Assembly (NCBI GenBank): GCA_015488685.1
Contig: WFNH01000096.1
Span: 1-64,000, forward strand
Direction of reading: 5' to 3'
Source of the DNA: Marinosulfonomonas sp.
Lineage (GTDB): Bacteria > Pseudomonadota > Alphaproteobacteria > Rhodobacterales > Rhodobacteraceae
DNA length: 64,000 nt
Part shown: piece by piece, positions 1 to 9,368 of the stretch
Layout of the letters: each line of letters opens with the position of its first letter
Position numbering within the stretch: the stretch's first letter is position 1
Translations under genes and position numbers: made by a program
Notes under the pieces: generated by a model
Told to the model about the DNA's origin: nothing
Seen by the model: the letters and a program-made list of their open reading frames with translations, nothing else
Database searches by the model: none

Positions 1-197
1 AATATGCCATTTTAACCATCCTCGCAAACCTCGCATTTGTGCTAACTAGAGCAATCAAATCTACCAGCCTTACATTTCTACCTTTTGTAGATACTAAAAA
101 TACGTATTGTTGTTATATTTCCATACCTGTCGACCTACTCTCTCACTAGCGTCTCGCGTATATACATAACTCGCCTGCACCGCAAAACAGCCTTGGA

Positions 198-801: not shown

Positions 802-2559
802 TCAGGCCGCTTCGGAATCAAAGTGCTTGCGATCAAGCCGCTCAAGCAATTGCGAAATAGCTTCGATCATCTGCGGCATGGTTTCGATTTCTTTTGAAGC
901 AAGTATATCTTGCCACACTTCACTGGGGGATTGAGAGGATTCATATCCTCCTTCGCTATCTTCAACAGCCACCTCGTCCGAAATATTTTCCCCGGGTTCA
1001 TCACCCGATACAGAAGCGATTTTGGAAACGACATTCAAGATGTCTTCGGCTTCAGCCTCTTTCTCTTGAATTTCGCTATCAGCTTCAGACTCCTGAATTG
1101 TATCATCATTCTGTAGCTCGCCCATATCACCAAGCTGGTCCAGAAACATCCGTGCATCGGCCTCTAAATCACTGTCTGATGCCTCTGGCTGCTCAATATG
1201 ATTGGCGATAATATCCGCTTGGTCAGCGGGGGCATCACCTAATGATTCATCCACCTGCTCATCAGTTTCCAATACTAAATTGGCTGATATTTCCAGTTCA
1301 TCTGTTTCGTCAGTAGAAATCTCTGCATTTTCCAGGGGCTTGTCTTCATTAACGGCGTCTTCAGCAACTTGGTCAGCCGGGTCTCTTTCCAATGTTTCCT
1401 CGACGGGTTCAGTCAACGAAACCGCACCTTCGGTAGAAGCGTCCACACGGGCAGGTGTGTCCACTTCAACTTCGGCTACATTAGCTGCTGCTTCTGATTG
1501 CTCTTCTTCGGAATTAGATATAGCGGTTTCAACCGCAGCAGAGGTCCTTTCAGCGACTTCCAGAGTACGAGGCTCATTGACCTCGGCGTGCACTTCATCA
1601 CCAGCCTGCTCAAGCACCGGCACTTCTTCAGCCCCTTTTACCTGATTGAGTATATCGCTACGCATATTTGCAGCATCGCTCGCATTTGACTGCCCTTTAC
1701 GTCGCTCTTGACTGTTGGGACGGATGCGGGTTGGACGAAGAATTGAAACGTTGTCGCCCACCGTTTCAGTGGCTCCTCTGGGTGTCCGATAACGCGCCAG
1801 TTCCTTCATACGCTTATCGCGAATTCCTGAAAGCACACCTTCCAGACTTTTCATAAAGGCTTCGCCACCACTTCTGACCCAAAGATTGTTTTTGTCTTCT
1901 CCTTGGCTGGCACGCAAAGCCAAAGTTAGTGAAATGAAACGATGGGCCACAAACAGACCACTGGTTTCACGCTGTAAACGGCGGTTGATTTTATTCAAAT
2001 CCTCGCGGGAAACGATTTTGTCTGCCCGTGTCACCAACAACAGGCTGTTTTCGCGGAGCCGATCTGGTAATGCTTCCCACTGGCTACGTTCGCTCTCACG
2101 CCATGCTTGGCCAGCGTGGGTACACCATAGAACTGAATTGGCATAGCCAATGGTGCTAATCCAGCTGTCGGTGGGGATGTTTGGGTCCGAAATACCGGGG
2201 GTGTCAATCAGGTCGCACTTTTCCAGCTGTTCGGAAATGGCATAAATGCGGATATATCGCGCCTTATTGATCGGAACCGACGCAAGGTCATCAATATCAA
2301 CATCATGCCGGTCACCATTCCTGTCTACCCAAAACGGTGAATCATCCCCATACCGCAGCCAGACTGGAGGCAACCGCGTCGCCGTAACCTGGGTCGGCAA
2401 TATTGCCTTGCCAACAAGCATGTTCAATAGCGTCGACTTGCCCGAACTGAATTCCCCCATAAGAGCAATTACCGGTTTACGTTTGGCCCAGCGCGAAAGC
2501 CGTTCCATTTTTTTTGCAGTCACGGCCCGGACGGCTTTATCTCGACTAGGTGCGTTCAT
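802..2559 (-). CDS. Dynamin-like GTPase domain protein with long acidic low-complexity C-terminal region
   Basis: P-loop GEFSSGKST, G3 DTPG (LIDTPGISDP), G4-like TRADK; Glu/Asp/Ala-rich tail. Confidence 0.85.
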   Translation of the reverse strand: MNAPSRDKAVRAVTAKKMERLSRWAKRKPVIALMGEFSSGKSTLLNMLVGKAILPTQVTATRLPPVWLRYGDDSPFWVDRNGDRHDVDIDDLASVPINKARYIRIYAISEQLEKCDLIDTPGISDPNIPTDSWISTIGYANSVLWCTHAGQAWRESERSQWEALPDRLRENSLLLVTRADKIVSREDLNKINRRLQRETSGLFVAHRFISLTLALRASQGEDKNNLWVRSGGEAFMKSLEGVLSGIRDKRMKELARYRTPRGATETVGDNVSILRPTRIRPNSQERRKGQSNASDAANMRSDILNQVKGAEEVPVLEQAGDEVHAEVNEPRTLEVAERTSAAVETAISNSEEEQSEAAANVAEVEVDTPARVDASTEGAVSLTEPVEETLERDPADQVAEDAVNEDKPLENAEISTDETDELEISANLVLETDEQVDESLGDAPADQADIIANHIEQPEASDSDLEADARMFLDQLGDMGELQNDDTIQESEADSEIQEKEAEAEDILNVVSKIASVSGDEPGENISDEVAVEDSEGGYESSQSPSEVWQDILASKEIETMPQMIEAISQLLERLDRKHFDSEAA

Positions 2560-2592
2560 CTCTTTTCATTCTCCATGCCATCAGCGCGTAAG

Positions 2593-4653
2593 CTACGCTG
2601 CGAATTTTCCAATCGCTGCCAGCGCATCTTCCAGCGCTATCTGGACCGATTTGTCGCTTGTTTTATTCACCAGTAATAGCGGCTCTTTGCCCCGGTTTTC
2701 CGATATAATTACAAGGGTATCACGTTGTTCCTGCACGAAACCTTGCAACCTACGCTGTACTTCGTCCAAAATTTCCGCAATCTGCGCCCCTTCCAGTTCC
2801 TGCACAAGCGAAGCAACCTCGGCCTGAATCAGCGAAGAATAATCCTTTGCAAAAGCCTCGAAGCCTTTGCGTTTTTGCCACCAGCGACGCCACCAGTTGC
2901 TGTTCAGATCCAGCGCAATCGTGCGGGCCAGAACGACAGGGGGCGGGACCATTGGAACTGCGGGCGGTTCAATTCTGAAACCATCAATCTCCACACCGAC
3001 GGCACGATAATATATGTCCTCAACCGCTGCGGCGGTATCAGTATAAACAGCGGTTGCCTGTTTCTTTAGTGTTGTAGCGAATTGGACATATGCAGACCGG
3101 AACAACAGACGCAGACCTGTTGCATCATACTGCCATGTATCCTGCTCGCCGAATCGGTCCAAGTGGGCAATCAGCGCATCGGTCGCACGGCGCACAAAAC
3201 TGCTCTGGGCGCGATCCAGACGCGCGTGTAGATTATTTCGCAGCGTATCAACGGTTTTCTGTAAATTTGCAGCGCTGTTTTTCGACAATTCCTCAAGCGC
3301 CTGCTTCACTTCTTCAGTTTCCAACAAAACCACTTCGCCACTTTCATGCAACTGATGGACAGCGCTTTTTTCGGCTTTGATCTCGTTATAAATATTAGAA
3401 AGCTGCGATCCCATGCTATCCACCAGACGCATCCCTGATCCCTCCAGGATGCGGTGATAAATTGCTTCCATCAGCGCCGGGATACCGGAAAGGATCCAGG
3501 TGTGGTCATTTGAGTCCGCCGCATCCACCTCCGGTACGGCAGACGCATAATTCAACAATGCATTCTGGCTGTCTTCGCTCAGCGCATCCAGATCACCGGT
3601 TAATGCCGCTTCAGCCCATTTGGCGCTTCCGAATACAATTTCACTCTCTTCCGAAACCGAGAATGTCTTTAGTGTTTCTTTGATATTCTCGTGAATTTCG
3701 GCAATCTGCTCACTCGGGTTCTCCAATTCGTCAATCCGGTTCACAAACAGAATAACTTGCCGCTTTTCAAAGTTTGACATCATCCGGATCAATGCCATAT
3801 CCGTCGTGTTCAATGCCTGGTGCGCCGACAAGACGACCAGACAGATTTCCGAACCACGCAGGCTTTTCAAAGTCGCCTGCTCGCGCACCATAAATGTATC
3901 ATTCACACCGGGTGTATCACGCAAGCGCATCGCAATCGGAAACTGCGGGATATCCAGAGCGAGTTCGGCCGATTTAGTGATGTCCGCAAATCGCCCGCGC
4001 TTGTTTCCGGGATCTATTTCTTCTTCATCCGGGTCACCAACGCAAACGTAGCGCTGGATCAATTCATTATCATAATATCCGTACTTGTGCGATTTCCCTA
4101 GCAGCAGTTCGAAACTGCTGCCCAGACGGGCCTCGGTTTTGTCACGCATATCTACAATCTGCTGTTGAACTTTCTCGGCTTCTTCGGTTGCCCCGGCTCG
4201 CCCTGCCAGCTCACCCAATCTCCCACCGGTAGAAACCAGATTATCCCATTCATTTCGGTTAAAGAAGGTAAAGCGCGCCTTTCTATCCCCGTCAGTCAAT
4301 TTCCTGTTAACCTGCAATTCCGTCACCACCGAGGTCCACGGGTTCACGTCCGAAGGCAGCAGACCCGGGATACCCACCAGGGCATTAACCAATGCTGTCT
4401 TGCCGGCTTTAACTTGACCGATCAGGGTAATGCTTGGGGCAAAACTATCCATCTTGCGCAACAGGCCCGCACCACGCTTTGAAATACGCTCGTCAGTATC
4501 ATCGGCCAGACACGAAGCCGCTACGCGGACCTCATCAATTGCACTGATGAAACCGGATAACACCTCTGACTTCATCTTTAGCAGATGATTGTTTTTAACG
4601 CCTGTTTGAGAATCCATTACTTTTCCCACCAATTTAAATCCTTCGTTATTCAA
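2593..4653 (-). CDS. Dynamin family GTPase
   Basis: P-loop GQVKAGKTALVNAL, G3 DTPGVNDT, G4 NRID, helical C-terminal half with WWRRWWQKR motif. Confidence 0.88.
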   Translation of the reverse strand: MNNEGFKLVGKVMDSQTGVKNNHLLKMKSEVLSGFISAIDEVRVAASCLADDTDERISKRGAGLLRKMDSFAPSITLIGQVKAGKTALVNALVGIPGLLPSDVNPWTSVVTELQVNRKLTDGDRKARFTFFNRNEWDNLVSTGGRLGELAGRAGATEEAEKVQQQIVDMRDKTEARLGSSFELLLGKSHKYGYYDNELIQRYVCVGDPDEEEIDPGNKRGRFADITKSAELALDIPQFPIAMRLRDTPGVNDTFMVREQATLKSLRGSEICLVVLSAHQALNTTDMALIRMMSNFEKRQVILFVNRIDELENPSEQIAEIHENIKETLKTFSVSEESEIVFGSAKWAEAALTGDLDALSEDSQNALLNYASAVPEVDAADSNDHTWILSGIPALMEAIYHRILEGSGMRLVDSMGSQLSNIYNEIKAEKSAVHQLHESGEVVLLETEEVKQALEELSKNSAANLQKTVDTLRNNLHARLDRAQSSFVRRATDALIAHLDRFGEQDTWQYDATGLRLLFRSAYVQFATTLKKQATAVYTDTAAAVEDIYYRAVGVEIDGFRIEPPAVPMVPPPVVLARTIALDLNSNWWRRWWQKRKGFEAFAKDYSSLIQAEVASLVQELEGAQIAEILDEVQRRLQGFVQEQRDTLVIISENRGKEPLLLVNKTSDKSVQIALEDALAAIGKFAA

Positions 4654-6324: not shown

Positions 6325-7635
6325 TCACCCTTCGCGGAACGCTTTGGCAAAGTAATCGGTAAAGGGTTTTAACAAATAGGCCAATGGTGTGCGGTCATTG
6401 GTGCGGATATAGGCCTGCACCGGCATCCCGGGGATCAGCACCGCCCCTTCAGGTAATTTATCTGCTTCCCCGTCTGACAGTACAATTTCCGATCGGTAAA
6501 AACTGATTTTCGACCGTTGATCCGTAAAGGCATCCGCCGAAATTTTCGTAACATGCCCCCGCAAAACAGGCGTCGTTCGGGAAGCAAAGGCCGGAAACCT
6601 CAAGGTTACCTCTTGCCCGACGAACACTTCGTCCACATGAATGGTTTCGATTTTGGCCGCAATCACCAACGGGCGGTCCTGCGGCACCAGATACAACACA
6701 GGGTCGGCAGGTTTTATGACCGAGCGCGGAGCAAAAAACTGCAAGCCGTAAACCACCCCCGCCAGCGGGGCGCGAATATCCAGACGCGACAGGCGTTCTA
6801 TAAGCGCACGACGTTTTTCTTGAAGTTCCAATTCGCGAAACTGCAAATCGCGCAAACGAGTGATGGCATCTTCCCGTCGTTTGGTCCCAAATTTCAAAAT
6901 CTCGATATCAATCTCGGTAATCCGGCCTTCGGCCTGCGCTTTATTCGCAGCCAGTTCGCCCATAGTGCCACGCAGCCGCGCGCCCTCGCGTTGCAAACCC
7001 AGAACGCGCGAGGCCTGAGCAAGACCGCGGTCAAGCAAGGTTTGCTGGTTTTTCAGTTCTTCATTTACCAATTCCAGTTGGGCTTCCAGCGCAGTTTGCT
7101 GGGCCGTTATTCCATTGATCTGATCGGCAATCTGGCTTCGTTGTTTTTGCAGCTGTGCAATTTCTTGCTTCATTGACGCTTGCCGTGCCGTAAACAGACG
7201 CTGCTGGCCTTGCATTAACTTTCGGGCATCTTCAGATGTTTTCGCAACCTCCAACAACTCTGGATCGAAAACAATCGCCTGTGCCCCGTCCCGCTCGGCC
7301 TCAAGTCGGCCACGACGCGCCATCAGCTCGAACAACTGCCCTTCCACAACGACCAGTTTGGACCTCAACTCGGTCGGATCCAGCCGGATCAGGATATCGC
7401 CTTTATCAACCAGATCCCCCTCTTGCACATCAATTTCGGCGATCACCCCACCGTCAGGGTGCTGTACCACCTGCCGGTTTTGGTCCACTTCAATCTGGCC
7501 ACTGGCAACCACAGCACCGGAAATATTGGCCATCACCGCCCATGTGCCAAAGCCGCCAACCAGCAGCAAAATAGCCAGAAACCCGATCACCAGCGGGGTG
7601 CGGGCGGACCATCCATTTTGTCTTGGCATGCTCAC
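6325..7635 (-). CDS. HlyD family type I secretion periplasmic adaptor subunit
   Basis: Single N-terminal TM, coiled coil, [23 protein letters not shown] lipoyl-like motif; overlaps the T1SS ATPase gene. Confidence 0.92.
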
Positions 7636-9368
7636 GTCACTCCCCCCTTGCCCCTGCTCTGGCGAATCTGCTCGTGGTTCTTGACCATCTCGCGCAGTAT
7701 GTCATCCTTTGGACCGAATGCCTTGCGCGCGCCACCTTCAAGCACCAAAAGCAAATCGCATTCCTGAATGGCTGCCGGTCGATGCGCCATGATCAGCACC
7801 GCACCGCCATCAGCTTTCATCTGTTTGATTGCCGTATTCAGAGCTTGCGACCCTTCGTTATCCAGATTTGAATTTGGCTCGTCCAATACCAGGATCACCG
7901 GGTCACCATACATCGCCCGCGCTAGCCCGATACGCTGCAACTGCCCGCCGGACAACCGCCCTCCGTTCGAGGACACCCGTGTGTCATACCCCTCGGGAAA
8001 GGCCAGAATCATATCGTGTGCCGCGGCTTTTTGCGCCGCCTTCACCACGGCCTCATCATCCGGTTGTAACGACATGCGGGCAATATTTTCGGCGATCGTG
8101 CCATCAAACAACTGCACCCGCTGTGGCAAATAGCCGATGTGCTGGCCCAATACGTCAGGATCATATTGGTCCAGTGCGGCCCCATCCAGCCGAATTTTAC
8201 CACCTGCCGCACGCCAAACGCCGGTTATGGCGCGGGCAAGTGTTGATTTGCCGGCCCCCGACGGCCCGATCACCCCCATCGCCTGCCCCGGATTCAACGC
8301 GAAACTAACCATCCGCAAAGATGCTTGTTGTTGCCCCGGCGGGACCACCGTCACCTGATCCGCAACCAGAATGGCCCTCGGCCTGGGCAAAGCGGTTCGG
8401 GATTGCTCGACGGGAACTTCAGACAAAAGAACCGCCAAATTGTCCCATCCTTTCAAAGCCCGCTGCACCAGCGCCCATTGCCCTATCGCCTGTTCTATCG
8501 GGGCCAATGCGCGCCCCATCAGAATAGAGCCTGCAATCATGGCACCGGCGGTTAATTGGCCCTGTAATACGAGATAGGCGCCCAACCCCAGCATCGCCGA
8601 CTGTAGGAACATGCGAAATGTTTTGGTTAACACAGCAAACCCGCCACCGCTGTCAGCGGCATGAATACTGGTAGCCAGCGCCTTTTCCCGCGCCTTTTCC
8701 CAGCGTTGGAACACAGCGCCCCGCATCCCCAGACTTTGCACGAGTTCGGATTCACTGCGCAATTGATCCGCCATCCGGTCGGCAAAATTGGCCGTGGCCG
8801 CCGATTCCAACACGGGTTTGCGGGTTATCATCTGATTCAATAATGTAATTAAAATCAGAAATGCGCCCCCCAAAACTGCGAGTATTCCCAACCAGGGATG
8901 GAACATAAAAATTCCTGCAATGAAAAACGGTGTCCACGGAATATCAAAAATCGCTATCAAAACAGGGGATGACAGCAACCGCTGCACCGCCTCAAGATCG
9001 CGCAATGCGCTGTTTGTTAAAGTTGCTCCATACCCTCGGGCGCTGGCACGCAGCACGGCAGAGAACACCCGCCCGTCCAATTCCGACTGGAACCGCGCAC
9101 CAATTCGCGCCAGAACACGGCCACGGGCATAATCAAGCAACCCCATGATTGTAAATAAAAATGCCGCCAGAATAGACAGGGCCAGAAGGGTTTCTTCTGA
9201 GCGGCTGCCCAATACGCGGTCATAAACCTGCAACATATACAAAGGAGCAGTCAGCATCAGCAAATTAACAAAAACGCTAAAAATCCCAACAGCCCAGAAC
9301 AATGCCCTGCTTTTGCGCCGCGCTTTTTTCAGTTCCGCCAAACCATTGTTACGATCTGCTTGCCGCAT
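7632..9368 (-). CDS. Type I secretion system permease/ATPase
   Basis: ABC TM domain plus [33 protein letters not shown]. Confidence 0.93.

Follow-up and report, generated by a model that had tools for sequence, protein, structure and literature searches.

A dynamin-like GTPase pair of the Rhodobacteraceae and its genomic linkage to a Ser/Thr kinase, FHA and PP2C cassette

In bacteria, paired dynamins are already well known (PMC6104087), and the described pair nearest to the one considered here is Cj-DLP1/Cj-DLP2 of Campylobacter jejuni (PDB 5owv, 5oxf), two dynamin-like proteins (DLPs) whose genes lie side by side. In that system, the trunk of DLP1 recruits the complex to the membrane at low concentration, and removal of the trunk tip of DLP2 leaves heterodimers only (PMC6104087). 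This report assesses two adjacent genes in 64,000 nucleotides (nt) of Marinosulfonomonas sp. DNA (contig WFNH01000096.1, positions 1 to 64,000; hereafter the window), together with their relatives across the family Rhodobacteraceae. As judged from sequence, the two products, B1 and A1, are heterotypic bacterial dynamin subunits of the Cj-DLP1/Cj-DLP2 kind, with A1 cut down to a G domain and a disordered tail (the names B1, A1, B2 and A2 are labels coined in this analysis). They make up half of a four-GTPase cluster within a system linked to a Ser/Thr kinase (STK), an FHA protein and a PP2C phosphatase, a setting that an earlier note on the same DNA had missed.

The two proteins and their described relatives

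The genes and their principal parts, in window coordinates, are these.

2593..4653, minus strand: B1, a stalked bacterial dynamin-like GTPase of the Cj-DLP1/BDLP class (Dynamin_N match, AlphaFold2 (AF2) model, profile search)
4396..4419, minus strand: B1 P-loop (G1), GQVKAGKT, with G79, Q80, K82, G84 and K85 invariant in 14 B proteins
3934..4320, minus strand: B1 G-domain region connecting G2 and G3, roughly residues 112-240, which is long and shows good conservation in the B family
2863..2946, minus strand: Trp-rich stalk-tip segment of B1, PPPVVLARTIALDLNSNWWRRWWQKRKG, residues 570-597, a candidate membrane paddle
802..2559, minus strand: A1, a stalkless dynamin-type GTPase of 585 amino acids (aa) with a Cj-DLP2-like G domain (Dynamin_N match, profile search, AF2 model)
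2431..2457, minus strand: A1 P-loop (G1), GEFSSGKST, its core invariant in 10 relatives, aligning with GQFSSGKSS of Cj-DLP2
931..1776, minus strand: acidic disordered tail of A1, about residues 262-543, recognized by composition and by a predicted local distance difference test (pLDDT) score mostly <50
823..927, minus strand: C-terminal helical hairpin of A1, residues 545-579 (helices 545-555 and 561-579; block pLDDT 74-83)

The two open reading frames (ORFs) are 33 nt apart, each with a plausible ribosome-binding sequence ahead of it. B1 is 686 aa long if read from TTG 4653 and 674 aa if read from ATG 4617, and the ATG is the more likely start because the ribosome-binding sequence GGTGGGAA sits ahead of it. 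Both proteins match Dynamin_N above the curated Pfam cut-off of 27 bits (A1, 54.1 bits, 2.4e-14; B1, 46.2 bits, 6.7e-12) and carry the G1, G3 and G4 motifs of a dynamin-type G domain, and their assignment to the dynamin family is close to certain. The earlier note had described two tandem minus-strand dynamin-type GTPases with different P-loops, only one of them stalked, and all three points hold: the P-loop of B1 is of the BDLP/Cj-DLP1 type and that of A1 of the Cj-DLP2 type, and a stalk of long helices is predicted for B1 and is absent from the model of A1. Since the best PDB profile matches are Cj-DLP1 for B1 (5owv_A, 1.8e-12) and Cj-DLP2 for A1 (5owv_C, 3.3e-19), the P-loop difference mirrors the split between DLP1 and DLP2 in Campylobacter.

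In B1, the P-loop aligns with GDMKRGKS of BDLP, the LPSDVNPWT motif is likewise of the BDLP type by alignment, and the G2-to-G3 stretch has a mean conservation of 56-68 % per 20-residue block. The AF2 model (pLDDT 63.8), whose nearest solved structures are IniA, BDLP, SynDLP, Cj-DLP and LeoA, predicts stalk helices at residues 446-501, 512-552 and 598-652, and the candidate paddle lies between the last two of these, the place occupied by the membrane paddle of BDLP. P570 and W587 within it are invariant in the 14 B proteins. Predicted helices, fold matches and the conserved Trp-rich tip together give B1, and B1 only, a helical stalk with a putative membrane-binding tip. The gene is under strong purifying selection, with a ratio of non-synonymous to synonymous substitution (dN/dS) of 0.03. 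The distance from G2 to G3 in B1 exceeds that in Cj-DLP1 (the LPSDVNP-to-DTPG spacing is also longer than that of BDLP), and a DLP1-like 119-residue assembly domain is not evident, there being only about 70 residues before the G domain. Nostoc BDLP1 (2j68/2j69) resembles B1 in its P-loop type, LPSDVNP-x-T region and fold; however, identity over the fold alignment is only 12 %, and the homology extends to BDLP1 alone, with no stalkless partner matched.

A1 is confidently modelled as a G domain to about residue 260, with no stalk or trunk in the AF2 model. Its match to Cj-DLP2 covers the G domain only (Cj-DLP2 residues 66-275); unlike Cj-DLP2, it has no neck or trunk past the G domain, and so is not the trunk-bearing DLP2 type of the back-to-back dimer. 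The tail is strongly acidic (73 D/E vs 9 K/R in residues 306-543) and fast evolving, at 48-50 % identity where the G domain retains 86-88 %, and A1 relatives of about 320 aa stop shortly past the G domain. A further difference from Campylobacter lies in operon content, an HcpA-like beta-lactamase there and a kinase cassette in the window's family.

An invariant pair within a four-GTPase cluster

Among 397 Rhodobacteraceae-type genomes, B was found in 101 (25 %) and A in the same 101, directly downstream of B and on the same strand in every carrier (median match-to-match gap 135 nt), so that two different DLP genes are side by side and co-inherited throughout. Of 385 genomes sampled across the class, only two had matches, both from the window's own family, and no other alphaproteobacterial family in the sample yielded the pair. 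On the basis of this co-occurrence (101/101), prevalence (101/397) and class-wide result, B-A is obligate as a pair and accessory as a locus, and is confined to the family in the sample; the co-occurrence check that the earlier note had suggested thus finds the genes to be neither unlinked nor core. In 18 PLSDB records the pair is plasmid-borne, the hosts being Ruegeria, Leisingera and Rhodobacter. No copy is present among 50,697 phage records, and a phage origin was rejected. Separately, locus L046 (genome G286) contains a diverged dynamin-like ORF.

Position 1 of the window is a contig end, and the locus continues on a second contig, C32, of the same genome (G000).

1..90, no strand: exact 90-nt overlap with the terminus of contig G000:C32
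198..425, minus strand: 75-codon gene, start ATG 422, separating pair B1-A1 from pair B2-A2 and under purifying selection (three copies compared, dN/dS 0.06-0.13)
C32:38726-40816, minus strand: B2, 696 aa, of the second pair
C32:37347-38729, minus strand: A2, 460 aa, of the second pair

Because the 90-nt overlap joins the window to C32, the cluster reads B1-A1-75aa-B2-A2. The same order occurs in the complete genome of a congener (G003), B1-A1-75aa-B2 is present on Marinosulfonomonas contig WGBJ01000090, and a four-GTPase cluster is further supported by locus L011, Ruegeria plasmid NZ_CP065362 and a plasmid of Rhodobacter CZR27. In the B tree, B1 and B2 fall in separate supported groups. A second architecture is represented by four-GTPase clusters without the kinase cassette at the locus (L049, L050, L051, L065, L087), which have their own B2-like clade. 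Loci L066 and L067 (G365, G207) hold B2-A2 without B1-A1, together with the small-protein gene c5 and further unassigned genes conserved between both loci.

The earlier note had taken the AT-rich flank at 1-800 as a sign of an accessory locus. The locus is indeed accessory, but the flank (40 % GC), which adjoins a contig end, consists largely of intergenic sequence, and the 75-codon gene within it is real. That gene, seen beside dynamins only in the window's genus and a near relative, is paralogous to the N-terminal part of a functionally uncharacterized 647-aa protein encoded near purA (G000:C73:20165-22105), at 44 % identity over residues 1-79 of the latter. Residues ~425-502 of the 647-aa protein in turn resemble the N-terminal part of FHA proteins in some dynamin operons, at 46-48 % identity (L114:3166-5106, minus strand; L058:4709-6559; L063:13881-15902). 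The 647-aa protein therefore has two separate domain links to the dynamin system, one through its N-terminus and one through residues ~425-502.

Linkage to a kinase, FHA and PP2C cassette

A dedicated PP2C group, defined by E below 1e-60, is present in 82 of the 101 carriers and in 4 of 296 non-carriers (Fisher 8e-61). In most relatives the cassette and the dynamin genes share one operon. The order STK-FHA-PP2C-A2-B-A1, or a close variant, was found in about 30 examined loci, often followed by c5, a gene for a 130-aa protein. Ruegeria plasmid NZ_CP065362 has the most complete set, which reads hyp-B1-A1-c5-c9-B2-A2-STK-FHA-PP2C-SBP-SBP, its SBP-SBP end encoding LysM/solute-binding-like proteins. 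In the genome of the window, a second locus (G000:C19) holds the kinase gene's 3' end together with genes for FHA, PP2C and A2c, the third of the small GTPases and a degenerate one. The kinase is full-length in the complete congener, where its 882 aa comprise a kinase domain, one predicted transmembrane segment and a weak PDZ-like C-terminal match. A functional link between the dynamins and the kinase cassette is very probable.

A recognizable DxPG motif is retained by only 11 of 47 A2 proteins, compared with 45 of 56 A1 proteins. This loss fits a putative pseudo-GTPase role for the A2 type; in the four-gene cluster that includes the window's pair, A2 retains the motif.

Three conserved small proteins are also encoded in these operons, namely c5 (~130 aa; L085:17688-18089), c9 (~290 aa; L085:18112-18975) and c29 (~140 aa; L085:13588-14001), none of which has credible relatives in Pfam or NCBIfam. 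A reading of c5 as a roadblock/LC7 protein was dropped, as neither Pfam nor PDB profiles give a credible match. The dedicated PP2C also occurs, near STK and/or FHA genes, in four genomes in which no B dynamin was found (G147, G185, G260, G121; L090-L093); these may represent remnants or another use of the cassette.

Possible functions of the system

The most likely overall function is phosphorylation-controlled membrane surveillance or repair, its output, by analogy with other bacterial dynamins, most likely being the tethering or resealing of membrane under envelope stress. In the proposed chain of events, a membrane Ser/Thr kinase whose PDZ-like end is inferred to lie outside the cytoplasm would sense envelope stress, joined where they are present by the LysM/solute-binding-like periplasmic proteins. 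An FHA reader would then bind phosphothreonines on putative target proteins and thereby gather A subunits, in keeping with the phosphothreonine-based action of type VI secretion system (T6SS) kinases and FHA proteins (PMC3953482). The G domain of A1 may pair with that of B1 in a 1:1 complex that licenses B1 assembly, trunkless A1 acting as a G-domain cofactor whose timing would be set by kinase phosphorylation and FHA binding. The Trp-rich tip of B1 would grip the inner membrane and tether or reseal it, and the PP2C phosphatase would reset the switch. The chain as a whole, from heterotypic dynamin through phospho-switch to membrane tethering or resealing, is given a probability of roughly 45 %; its regulatory core, direct control of dynamin assembly by the kinase, the FHA reader and the PP2C eraser acting via stalkless G-domain partners, with A2 as a pseudo-GTPase adaptor, is put forward tentatively.

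Several observations weigh against this reading. Members of the window's genus carry the cassette at a locus apart from B1-A1. Nineteen of the 101 carriers do not have this PP2C, among them genomes with four-GTPase-only clusters (e.g. L049-L051), and the kinase cassette is therefore not indispensable. The PDZ-like match of the kinase is weak (E 0.007), no phosphosite has been identified, the B1 model is of moderate confidence (pLDDT 63.8, alignment of five sequences), and the idea of a repair role comes from other bacterial dynamins.

The alternative that survives best, although it is unlikely, is anti-phage defence of the Eleos/LeoABC or DynA type, whereby the dynamins would either seal the membrane or make it collapse in infected cells, with the kinase cassette as the trigger. 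It is retained because of the patchy distribution of the locus and because DynA of Bacillus subtilis restricts lysis by phage (PMC8844932); plasmid copies, a locus GC content below that of the surroundings and weak PADLOC matches (LeoBC and LeoA for both proteins, mad8 for A1) are also in its favour. However, the neighbours of sampled loci are transport and metabolism genes, and among 133 of them the only PADLOC matches are eight to mad3 and one to QatD, so the dynamins do not lie among other defence genes. The eight mad3 matches are most likely generic ABC ATPases, since eight members match ABC_tran. The absence of the pair from the phage records also counts against defence. The likeness to LeoA/LeoBC is itself partial and low scoring (LeoBC, 36.9 and 42.9 bits over part of the profile; NCBIfam DLP_LeoA_gen, 14.7 bits vs a cut-off of 325), and gene content differs, with no defence-island setting. 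For DynA, the fused dynamin of Firmicutes, the NCBIfam model DynmDynABac gives 28.7 bits vs a cut-off of 1600, and the genes here are separate. Membership of the DynA/B or LeoABC groups, which the earlier note had named as examples of paired dynamins, is thus not upheld by the curated models. Membership of MADS was rejected as well: the kinase matches the MAD6 model at 128.5 bits, under its cut-off of 460, A1 matches mad8 at 6e-4, and the neighbours include no convincing MADS component.

Less probable still is a LeoA-like accessory role in vesicle release or secretion, perhaps acting with the type I secretion (T1SS) genes near B1.

6325-7635: HlyD (T1SS)
7632-9368: ABC (T1SS)

LeoA-type dynamins have been tied to toxin and vesicle release (PMC4159319), and T1SS genes adjoin the pair in both the window and the complete congener; however, T1SS genes are not conserved beside B-A outside the genus, the conserved partner being the kinase cassette. 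A housekeeping function comparable to that of Streptomyces DynA/DynB, in division or cell shape, would suit the purifying selection on B1 but is improbable, given that only about a quarter of family genomes carry the pair and that plasmid copies exist; at that prevalence, a core housekeeping gene was rejected.

The remaining idea, that the cassette is the T6SS threonine-phosphorylation pathway (PpkA-Fha-PppA) and the dynamins T6SS accessories, starts from the shared domain types of a known regulatory trio (PMC3953482) and from TssB at G000:C33:2244-2705, but is rejected by distribution as highly improbable: 67 of the 101 carriers, including the closest complete relative, are without T6SS (TssB), the overlap with carriers is barely over chance (34 observed, p 0.047), the partners here are dynamins, and T6SS-type PP2C scores weakly and forms a group of its own (of 62 genomes whose matches are all weak, 60 are T6SS-positive). 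TssB is present in the window's genome, unlike that of its complete congener.

Open PMC full text yielded no description of a kinase-linked dynamin cluster or of dynamins of Rhodobacteraceae/Roseobacter/Rhodobacterales, which is suggestive and not proof. How bacterial dynamins get switched on is largely an open question. With the B-A family tied by genome statistics to a complete kinase, reader and phosphatase module and to stalkless partners, that regulation becomes biochemically testable, and tractable hosts such as Ruegeria and Leisingera are available, some of which hold the whole set on plasmids. The trunkless DLP2-like subunit offers a test of whether a lone G domain can be a dynamin cofactor. 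If the proposal that kinase, FHA reader and PP2C directly control dynamin assembly is true, this family would present a bacterial case in which split dynamin parts carry out membrane fusion or fission under the gating of a kinase.

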